Assembly (NCBI RefSeq): GCF_020906515.1 | Contig: NC_085855.1 | Location: 1,922,001-1,986,000, forward strand | Reading direction: 5' to 3' | Length of the DNA: 64,000 nucleotides | DNA from: Vanrija pseudolonga | Lineage: Eukaryota; Basidiomycota; Tremellomycetes; Trichosporonales; Trichosporonaceae | Shown here: positions 1,415 to 6,988 of the stretch, one piece after another | How the letters are laid out: the number at the start of each line of letters is the position of its first letter | Numbering within the stretch: the stretch's first letter is position 1 | Notes under the pieces: generated by a model | Seen by the model: the letters and a program-made list of their open reading frames with translations, nothing else | Databases searched by the model: none | What the model was told of the DNA's origin: nothing | Program-made: the position numbers and the translations under genes

Positions 1415-3065
<1,651 letters not shown>

Positions 3066-3346
3066 GTTGGCTTGCTGTTCTAGTGGTTTGCTCTGTTTCG
3101 CTTGTCGTAGTCTATGTTCGTCGTTTCTGAGTGTTCTAACGTGTAGAGTGTAGAGTCAAACGAGCAAGAGTGATGATTGATGATTGATGATGATGACCAC
3201 CTCTGTCCTTCCCTTCTAGCAGCACCGACGACGATTACAAGTCGCCAGGAGTGACGCCGTATGTCGCGTCACCCACGTGGCAATTTGATTCCGTCGGGAA
3301 GTGACCAGCGACTGTCTTCCTTTTGGGCGCGTCACGGTCAGGCGCG
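3066..3346. promoter_or_regulatory. Divergent RPT1 / Rap1-like promoter
   Basis: 281 bp between the RPT1 start (3065) and the first in-frame ATG of the Rap1-like gene (3347). It contains a TGATGATTGATGATTGATGATGATGA-like tandem run near 3170-3200 and a CCACGTGG palindrome at 3273-3280. Regulatory roles are inferred. Confidence 0.45.
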
Positions 3347-6300
3347 ATGGCATTTGGGCCATTTGGGGTGGAGGTCAATCTGGAACAACGACACTGTGCT
3401 TTATCGTCTCACCATCACCTTTACAACAACGCTGCCTGGGCAATGGCCTGCAAAGTACCCGTTCAGACATCCTACCCTCGCGGTGGGGTGTCAGAGGGGT
3501 CAGCCTTTGTAGACCAAATCTCGGGGGCACCACTCAGGATATACCTAGACTCAACACTACCAGACCATCTGGACCTGTGCAAGATCTTGACCGTGAGTCG
3601 CGTCATCGACTGGCATTGACTGACGGGTCCCAGAGCCTAGGCGGGGAAATTACAGCAGCAGGGGACAATGACACGCACCTCTTCGTCCTCGATCCCTCCA
3701 GTCGACAAATGATCAACGCCTTCTGTCACCCGGCATGGTTGCCGATCCCCGCCAAAGATCGGCTTATCGCGGCTATCGAGCGCGGCGAAGGCAGCTCACG
3801 CGAGTTCTGGAAGAAGAACGTCATCCTCTCGTCAGCTTGGATTCGCAAGTGCCATGAAGCGGGGCGGTTCATTGTGAGTCTAGCTCTCGGCCTGTGCGCT
3901 AACATCAAGGGCGAGGAACAGGAATGGAGCGGCATGCGGCAAGCCGGCCCGCCGGTCGACGCGCAGCTGTTCAACCTCTGGGAGTTTGGCACAGACGAAG
4001 AGCACAACGCTTCGGCCGCTTGGACATGTGCCGACTGCAACCGCCAGTGCCTCGACCGATGGGACCTCGAGTTCCACCTGTCGAAGAGCAGCTGCGAGCC
4101 AAAAACCATGCACTCCATTGCCCAAAGACCAACGGCCCCACGCTGGCGCTTCATGCCCGACTTTCCGCCAGAGCCATCACCGCCTCCAGTTCCTTCGGCC
4201 ATCGTGCTTCAGCCGCCGACAAGTCCGGTCCAACCCGATCAAGACGAGTTAATGGACGATGACGACGTCAAACCTGGCCCAGGACAGCTTCCTTCATCCC
4301 AGCAGTCAGAAGACATGGATATCGATACCCCAACGGCGTCCCAGGTTCCGCAGCAGGCGGCCTTGCAGCCCACAAGAACCTACCAATTGGACGAAGACAT
4401 GGATATCGAAACGCCAACGCCGACACCTACGCCGCGAAGAGCCACTCCACCAGCTGTGGCATCGGGATCCACACAGGCTGTACTGGCAACCCCGGGGGCA
4501 GCTCTCCTAGAAGCCAGCATCGACCTGTCCACAATACCCAGCGTGTCAAATTTATCCAACATGTTCCCGTTCCTCCTCGACGTAAACGTCTGGTTCTACA
4601 GCGAGTTCTCGCAGCACACTCAAACGGTCGTCGGCGATGCCGTGAAGGCGGTTGGCGGCATTGTCACCACCGGCGATGACTGGGGACACGCGACCCACCT
4701 TCTCTTCCCAGAAGACACAGACGAGTTCTTAAACGAGACCTTCATGGACAGCTTGGCCGAGGCCTGCGCCATGGAAGGAAAGTGGTGCGTCGACATCGAA
4801 TGGGTCGTCCAATGCCTCAAGGCCAAGGAGCACCTTCCAGAAGGAAACTTCGCGGTCACCAGGCATAAGCCGCGGGGTGTCGGGGGCGTGCCCGAGCAGT
4901 CTCCTGCCCCCGTAGCGCCAACAGACACGCCGCGGCGTGCAGCTCGATTGAGCGAAAAGGGGAAGGAAGTTGCCTCAAGCACTCCCACAAGTTCGTTCGC
5001 CGCCGGGGCCAACACGGCACCGACTCTACAGTGGACGTCAAGTGCAACCGGGACGCCGAGTCTGCGTTGGACAAGTAGTGCGACCGGGGCGAACTCTACA
5101 CCCGTTTCACAATATCGCCGCTCAAGCGCCACGGGTTCCAATACTCTGCCGCTCTCACAAGTTGGCCCGAAAGGAGTAACATCTACGCCTACTCCACAAA
5201 CTGAAACCAGGAGAACCAGTGGGGTCACCGCTACGCCACAAACTCGAACAAAAATCACTGGTGCCAACTTGATCCCCGTTGCGCAAAATCGGCCCAATGA
5301 TGCCTCTGGCAGTAACAACCCCGGGACTGGCCATACCACGGCGGTCAACCCGCCCGCCCCGCCGCCTAAGCTCTCCAAGAAAGAGCGAAAGCGTCAAAGG
5401 AAATTGGTGAACGGGGCGCCTAATCCGCATCGGAAGTCCTATAGCGATTTTTCGCAGTATGGACCGTGGGCGCCCTGCCATCTCTCACTAATCATTGGAG
5501 CGGAGAAACGAAAACTTCTTGACTCGGGGGACCCATGCATGTATCTTGCAAGAAAGGTAGGTAAACTAGGCCCTAGGTGTCTTTGGTACGCCCACTCATC
5601 CATCACAGTACGGGCACTCATCAGTTGAGTGGAAGAATCTCCTCGGGCATTGGGAGAAGAAGACGGGTCCCTTCTCAGGATTCAAGTACAAAGTCCCCTC
5701 GGAGGAGGAGGTGGGGCAAAGGAAGACTTGTCGCATCCCACCGGTTGTCATTGCCATTATTGCGTCTCAATACCACGGCCCGAACGGCAACAGACCTGCA
5801 AAGCAGCATGCCAATGCGGTGCAGCACCTGGCCAAAATCGTAAGCTTGCTCGCAGGCGGAGGGTTACTGACTTTCTCACAGCACCCAGAGTACACGGAGA
5901 TGGAATGGAAGCGGGTTATGAAATTTTGGAGACTCAGGAAGGGCATGTTTGACCGAGCCAAGGGCTTCTGGTCGCCTGACATGACGCGAAAACAGGTAGA
6001 GCAACTCTTCTCGTGCGAGTCTAGGCAGACCGCGGAAGACGCTCCCAGCGTTATCGGTGAAGTCGAGCCTTTCCACGACTCGGACGCCGACGACGTGTCC
6101 AGCAACGGGTCATCCAACAGTGGGGACAACAGCCACGGCAGTGGGTCATCCAACAGTGGAAACAGCGATAGTGGCGGAGGGCCACCGTCGCCTGTCATAC
6201 CCGCCACTCGCAATAGTCCGCCCAACTCCGCCAATAACGTTGGCTGGGTCAAGGTTCCCGCTCGAGTGCAAGCGGCGCGCGCTGTTGTGCCGGCCAAGCG

Positions 6301-6988
6301 TCCCAGTCCGAATGTCGAGCCGAATCTGGCTGTTCCCAAAAGGACCAACCTCTACTCTCCGTTCGATGGGGAGGAGCGTCGGCTGATGGCTGTCTACATG
6401 ATGAGCCGCCTTCCAACCCCCACGGGCTGTTCCCCGAACGACTGGGCCGATTTTGCAGATATCAACCCTCACCGACCGGCACAAGTATGGGCACAGCACT
6501 TTCGAGCTACGGAAGGCGTCATTCGCAGTCTTCTCAAGAAAATGCTTGCCGCCGGTGGCAGTGCCGTACCAGCACAGGCTGCCGTACCAGCAGCACAGGC
6601 AACATCGCCTGTGCCCACCGCCACACCGGCGTCTTTTGCCGAGGGAGCACCAGTGCCTGCGAGGGTCACCCGTGCGCTGGCTGCATCAGCGACCCCGCCA
6701 GTAGTCGCTACCCCACCTGTGGTGGCAAACAGCGCACCGACCAGGCGCTCGAGTCGGTCAACGCCGCAGTCCGCTGCGTCTAGTTCGCAGCCCTCGCCAA
6801 CGCCACAGCTGGGGGTCACGCCCAAGCCTCGTGCAACGGCATCCCAGCCACCTCCTGCCTCACAGCCTACTCCACGTCGTGGTCGAAGCGCAGCCGAGGC
6901 CATTGTCATTGATGACGACGACAGTGGGACGCGTCGCCGTACTCGCCGCACCCGGGGCGACATCAACAATCCTGTCATCATCGACTAG
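3347..6988 (+). CDS. Rap1-like BRCT / zinc-finger / Myb protein
   Basis: Likely a chromatin or telomere protein; function is inferred. Exons 3347-3592, 3634-3873, 3910-5556, 5609-5839 and 5882-6988 join in phase to give about 1156 residues. Residues about 53-162 look like the Rap1-type N-terminal BRCT (start APLRIYLDS, then SLGGEI, ending SSAWIRKCHEAGRFI). A C2HC finger (CADC...H...C) follows at about 202-222. A second BRCT lies at about 381-480 with GGIVTTGDDW and WCVDIEWVVQCL. Three Myb-like modules follow at about 692-735, 755-816 and 946-1010; the last (DGEERRLMAVY ... PAQVWAQHF) best resembles the Rap1 Myb. Long Ser/Thr/Pro linkers separate these. The tail carries IVIDDDD, a SUMO-binding-like motif. 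The start could also be the ATG at 3443. A plain BRCT/Myb DNA-repair protein is the alternative. Confidence 0.75.

Follow-up and report, generated by a model that had tools for sequence, protein, structure and literature searches.

We identified, in a window of 64,000 nucleotides from the basidiomycete Vanrija pseudolonga, a five-exon gene for a 1152-aa protein in which two divergent single BRCT domains appear to surround a C2HC finger and to be followed, with long linkers between them, by three helical modules, the first two of them related and Trp-bearing, and by a conserved acidic tail (Table 1). Judged from its sequence, the protein is not the standard Rap1 of its host. We favour, with about even confidence, a reading as a nuclear DNA-associated scaffold for genome maintenance or chromatin, present in Vanrija and a near relative, in which the BRCT domains would serve as docking sites for partners, contact with DNA or chromatin would fall to the finger and the helical modules, and the tail would bring in another partner, perhaps SUMO-modified. 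Nuclear location, DNA contact and partner binding are what we infer from the domains alone, since a single relative was compared. The gene had been called Rap1-like in the initial annotation; the anatomy behind this label (two BRCTs, a C2HC pattern and C-terminal repeats) was retained, but the Rap1 part of it was not, with the Myb_Rap1 family (PF08914) unmatched in the protein and in its modules.

Table 1. Features of the window gene and of the Rap1 candidate on contig C3 (positions are those of the window unless a locus is given).
Feature	Residues	Position	Strand	Basis
BRCT1, interrupted by intron 1	~55-162	3509..3873	+	PF16589, E 0.0035 alone
C2HC pattern, C-x2-C-x12-H-x5-C	198-220	4027..4095	+	by inspection
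BRCT2	~376-476	4561..4863	+	PF16589 at 393-471, E 0.013 alone
Module 1, interrupted by intron 3	667-737	5434..5698	+	EW-x6-W-x4-G-x-F
Module 2, interrupted by intron 4	745-820	5720..5989	+	EW-x6-W-x4-G-x-F
Module 3, weakly Rap1-Myb-like	940-1006	6347..6547	+	profile and pairwise scores
C-terminal tail, with AIVIDDDD	1121-1152	6890..6985	+	32/32 identical to P0002
Exons of the BRCT-finger gene		3347-3592, 3634-3873, 3922-5556, 5609-5839, 5882-6988	+	spliced translation
C3 Rap1 candidate (L030, G000:C3:4170500-4180000)		exons 5675-5586, 5538-4922, 4859-3062	-	PF08914

The spliced translation (3347-6988) is open from end to end, and the four introns, of 41, 48, 52 and 42 nt, are all GT-AG. In a relative, the counterpart appears to be split over two proteins, P0001 (786 aa) and P0002 (369 aa), taken from 27,661-base contigs of a public assembly that are presumably one and the same. 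Neither covers exon 4 or the beginning of exon 5, and P0001 reads exon 1 in another frame. The gene is real, with an intact five-exon reading and this counterpart, and the earlier coordinates, 3347..6988, contain one gene. The start codon may be the ATG at 3347 or that at 3443, and the codon-usage support for exon 1 is weak: another frame is slightly ahead over 3347-3442, and the chosen frame leads by a narrow margin over 3443-3592, while in exons 2-5 it is the preferred one. Third-position GC is 0.50 upstream of 3443 and 0.60-0.69 from there onward, compared with 0.80 in the adjacent kinase gene. Intron 2 (3874-3921) is absent from P0001, whose coding sequence includes the residues GEEQ; in the window gene these fall within the predicted intron, at its 3′ end. 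Thus, either its acceptor is uncertain or the intron was gained or lost. The public model of this gene, LOC62_07G009624, is a 411-aa middle piece of the protein which starts at an internal Met, omits EWSGMRQAGPPVDAQ, ends in a frame-shifted tail after BRCT2, and misses the beginning of BRCT1 as well as the modules towards the C-terminus. A divergent neighbour on the minus strand (~1415-3070), which we take by eye to be a 26S proteasome AAA ATPase subunit, lies ~280 bases from the start of the window gene.

Conservation, counted as identity to P0001 or P0002 per block of 20 residues and so describing one relative, was concentrated in islands. The BRCT1 blocks within 81-160 had 18, 17, 18 and 19 of 20 residues identical, and those of BRCT2 (381-480) had 18-20, giving a range of 17-20 for the two domains from residue 81. 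The finger block 201-220 had 19 of 20, next to 14 of 20 in 181-200, and the blocks of module 3 (941-1000) had 19, 18 and 19; the tail was unchanged. Identity was lower in the half of module 1 that has a counterpart (11/20, 13/20 and 5/7), in the covered residues 791-820 of module 2 (13/30) and in the linkers, where it fell to 6 of 20 per block. We read the protein as fast-evolving and perhaps lineage-restricted, with conserved islands among faster stretches. Protein searches, which need shared 5-residue words, returned at least 1, 1 and at least 2 matches among the candidates compared. An open-access literature search retrieved no title on the BRCT-finger protein, and a scan of viral contigs with BRCT2 gave 27 pattern matches, none of which was confirmed.

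Two divergent BRCT domains, each with weak profile matches, are supported in the window protein. The whole protein matched the Pfam family PF16589 (BRCT_2) in two stretches with E 3.2e-4 and 21.4 bits, which, like all its other BRCT matches, is below the curated cut-off of 27.3 bits, and both domains proposed in the initial annotation matched it weakly on their own, likewise below the cut-off. The BRCT_2 match was weaker in P0001 and P0003 (E 0.028 and 0.01), with PF00533 reaching E 0.014 in P0001. An exon-by-exon search of the 24.87 Mb host genome (nine contigs; Basidiomycota, Tremellomycetes, Trichosporonales) with PF16589 at E<=0.001 left the window gene without a match and found two other loci, which we take from their ORFs to be Rev1 and Pescadillo.

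When solved structures were searched by sequence, the whole protein had no match and BRCT1 gave a single unrelated row. BRCT2, on the other hand, gave 23 rows at E<=10 (best E 0.035), 21 of them BRCT proteins, namely 17 variants of one protein, BRCA1, and 4 of BARD1, with 2 rows unrelated; a two-sequence profile of it gave 18 rows, 17 of them BRCA1, at non-significant E-values of 0.021-0.35. The BRCT of RAP1 (7oz0) was in neither BRCT2 list. In pairwise comparisons, BRCT1 scored 54 against what appears to be a Rev1-like BRCT of the host (reached by 1 of 1000 shuffles) and 37, out of register, against the human RAP1 BRCT (10 of 1000, P 0.010), while BRCT2 had P 0.042 against human RAP1 and P 0.017 against a Pescadillo-like BRCT. 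As two N-terminal segments of the Rap1 candidate on contig C3 also fail against the human RAP1 BRCT (P 0.54 and 0.77), these pairwise tests are indecisive for or against Rap1. An N-terminal BRCT is indicated by a weak, sub-cut-off BRCT_2 match, as the earlier comparison with telomere Rap1 had it, but neither domain appears specifically RAP1-like.

The four ligands of the C2HC pattern are all kept in P0001, but no zinc-finger family of Pfam matched the protein, with Cys_box alone appearing below its cut-off; the finger proposed earlier is a pattern with conserved ligands. As for the three Myb-like modules of that proposal, modules 1 and 2 are alike (score 46, shuffle mean 24.1, reached by 0 of 2000 shuffles), and their shared motif is kept in the part of module 2 covered by P0002. 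Module 3, however, was similar to neither (P 0.15 against module 1 and 0.23 against module 2), and the Myb folds of the proposal were not confirmed, as none of the three modules matched any Pfam family at E<=10.

The initial annotation had likened the last module to telomere Rap1 and had pointed to a Myb_Rap1 profile search as a check. At E<=10, PF08914 matched neither the whole protein nor any of the three modules. Against our own profile of four Rap1 Mybs, module 3 scored 2.3 bits, and 27 of 1000 shuffles of its sequence did as well or better; for module 2 the score was 0.3 bits (209 of 1000), and module 1 was unlisted. The profile was checked by withholding the Rap1 Mybs one at a time and scoring each with the three-member profile of the others; all four were recovered, with 11.3-17.4 bits and 0 of 300 shuffles each, whereas the modules scored -2.1 to 4.2 bits or were unlisted in the same four runs. 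The Rap1 label thus failed this profile check. With hhalign against the four Rap1 Mybs, modules 2, 3 and 1 scored 14.9, 14.5 and 7.4, respectively; for modules 2 and 3 the 95% levels of 60 shuffles were 13.5 and 12.0, the best shuffles 14.8 and 17.8, and the scores against five generic Mybs 7.8 and 9.4. These values suggest a mild preference for a Rap1-type Myb in modules 2 and 3, and not in module 1. By Smith-Waterman alignment to the Rap1 Myb of the C3 protein, module 3 had P 0.0045 (2000 shuffles, uncorrected, one of six pairs), which we regard as a lead only, next to P 0.70 for module 1 and 0.27 for module 2. Module 3 had no match among solved structures; since the same search with the C3 Rap1 Myb gave no row at E<=10 either, it is a poor test of Rap1 identity.

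The sole PF08914 match of the host genome is on contig C3, with 33.7 bits and above the cut-off, and so the window protein fails as the Rap1 orthologue of this genome. The C3 candidate as spliced has three exons and 834 aa, with Myb_Rap1 at 241-296 (E 1.4e-6); its N-terminal BRCT-like and C-terminal RCT-like helical segments, noted by eye, were unmatched in Pfam. On present evidence, that of its Myb domain, we take the C3 protein to be the Rap1 of the host. It resembles the window protein by eye in having an N-terminal BRCT-like segment and later Myb-like segments, one of which aligns with module 3 as given above, but differs in its above-cut-off Myb_Rap1 and in having no Pfam BRCT match; the best full-length BLASTP match between the two (E 0.22) lies outside the BRCT and Myb regions of both. 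PF11626 (Rap1_C) was unmatched in the window protein; the profile may be insensitive here, as the C3 candidate is unmatched as well and the controls of the genome search matched nowhere. Rap1 identity is accordingly not supported for the window protein, with PF08914 and PF11626 unmatched, its modules far below real Rap1 Mybs and Myb_Rap1 located elsewhere.

A diverged second member of the Rap1 family is a possible, if doubtful, alternative; such a paralogue would have retained a BRCT and Myb arrangement while acquiring another BRCT, the finger and extra modules, would have lost the RCT, and could possibly act at TTAGGGGG telomeres beside the standard Rap1. The alignment of module 3 with the C3 Myb, its 2.3 bits, the hhalign scores of modules 2 and 3 above the 95% shuffle level and above generic Mybs, the helices of these two modules in a low-confidence model, and the RAP1-like FV...G..L..Y seen by eye at the start of BRCT1 would all suit it. 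Rap1/TERF2IP (human RAP1 and S. cerevisiae Rap1) shares with the window protein a BRCT near the N-terminus and possible Myb-like helical module(s) downstream, and differs from it by the second BRCT and the C2HC pattern of the latter. Against the paralogue, PF08914 and Rap1_C are unrecognised in the window protein, its modules stay at or below 4.2 bits in runs that recovered every left-out Rap1 Myb, modules 1 and 2 are unlike the C3 Myb, the best of 60 shuffles beats the hhalign score of module 3, and BRCT1 scores higher with the Rev1-like BRCT than, out of register, with that of human RAP1. The BRCA1 rows of BRCT2 raise instead the reading of a mediator of DNA repair akin to BRCA1, BARD1 and Crb2, whose BRCTs would read phosphorylated partners at breaks; the C-terminal half of BRCT2 aligns with the GKW-V---WV-Q--K pattern of BRCA1. 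We consider this rather unlikely, as those rows come from one and the same protein at non-significant E-values, the two BRCTs are single and ~210 residues apart rather than a phospho-reading tandem pair, and BRCT2 has a Met opposite BRCA1 K1702, presumably the phosphate-binding lysine, in the four alignments shown.

It is also conceivable that two adjacent genes were wrongly joined, one encoding BRCT-finger-BRCT, close to the public 411-aa model, and the other encoding the helical modules, as that model stops after BRCT2 and the relative has P0001 and P0002 as distinct ORFs. This is very improbable: exon 3 has no stop between a point upstream of the finger and the first half of module 1, P0001 has none across the same span, introns 3 and 4 interrupt modules 1 and 2, and the end of the public model is its frame-shifted tail. 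The scaffold reading has in its favour the two BRCT_2 stretches, each also seen alone, the finger ligands kept in the relative, the conserved islands, the location of the Myb_Rap1 match in another gene, and the unmatched Rap1_C. Against it stand the sub-cut-off BRCT matches, weaker still in P0001 and P0003, and the missed window gene at E<=0.001 genome-wide, to which the predicted structures add low pLDDT values and a fold search with no BRCT among the best 50 of 1301 rows. We know of no named protein with a BRCT-C2HC-BRCT-repeat plan, and there was none among the matches listed; if confirmed, this would be an unusual plan and an unstudied genome-maintenance factor of Trichosporonales.

Structure prediction, also proposed in the initial annotation, left the fold of the BRCTs and modules undecided, as the models of the two protein halves, made from two and three sequences, had a mean pLDDT of 34.1 and 33.3, but it gave BRCT2 a strand-helix-strand-strand-helix-strand order. 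In these low-confidence models BRCT1, with its exon 1 part left out, had helices only, modules 2 and 3 were helical, and there was no helix after module 3. The fold search with the model of the BRCT half had none of its 1301 rows at E<=0.001; its best row (E 0.026) was an engineered protein and many rows were ferredoxin-like.

Seven of the nine host contigs (C1-C7) start with CCCCCTAA, i.e. the 8-base unit TTAGGGGG, which also serves as the telomere seed in Cryptococcus constructs (PMC3990503). The starts of C8 and C9 lack the repeat, and among the other ends that of C4, the one read, is also without repeats. The TRF, POT1 and Rap1_C families had no match in the host genome, where the controls matched nowhere either. 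The duplex telomere binders described in Ustilago maydis are Tay1 and a TRF-like protein, and the available parts of the same papers describe no basidiomycete Rap1 (PMC7952879, PMC7744550, PMC4839565). UmTay1 and UmTrf2 are basidiomycete Myb-domain telomere binders, for which the accessible portion of PMC7744550 does not mention a BRCT. Perhaps the standard Rap1 of Vanrija is accompanied by a second BRCT-Myb protein, the fast-evolving one described here, which might be a dedicated duplex binder of the 8-base TTAGGGGG repeat; we consider this arrangement quite improbable. A strict telobox-like DNA pattern had no match in the host genome. A Rap1 candidate on C3 with an above-cut-off Myb_Rap1 domain in a basidiomycete with TTAGGGGG telomeres makes the telomere-protein make-up of the group directly testable.

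The AIVIDDDD of the tail, which ends in NPVIID, resembles what we take to be a SUMO-interaction motif. An acidic near-duplicate, EDMDIDTPT and EDMDIETPT, was also observed at 4309-4335 and 4393-4419, in the linker between the finger and BRCT2.
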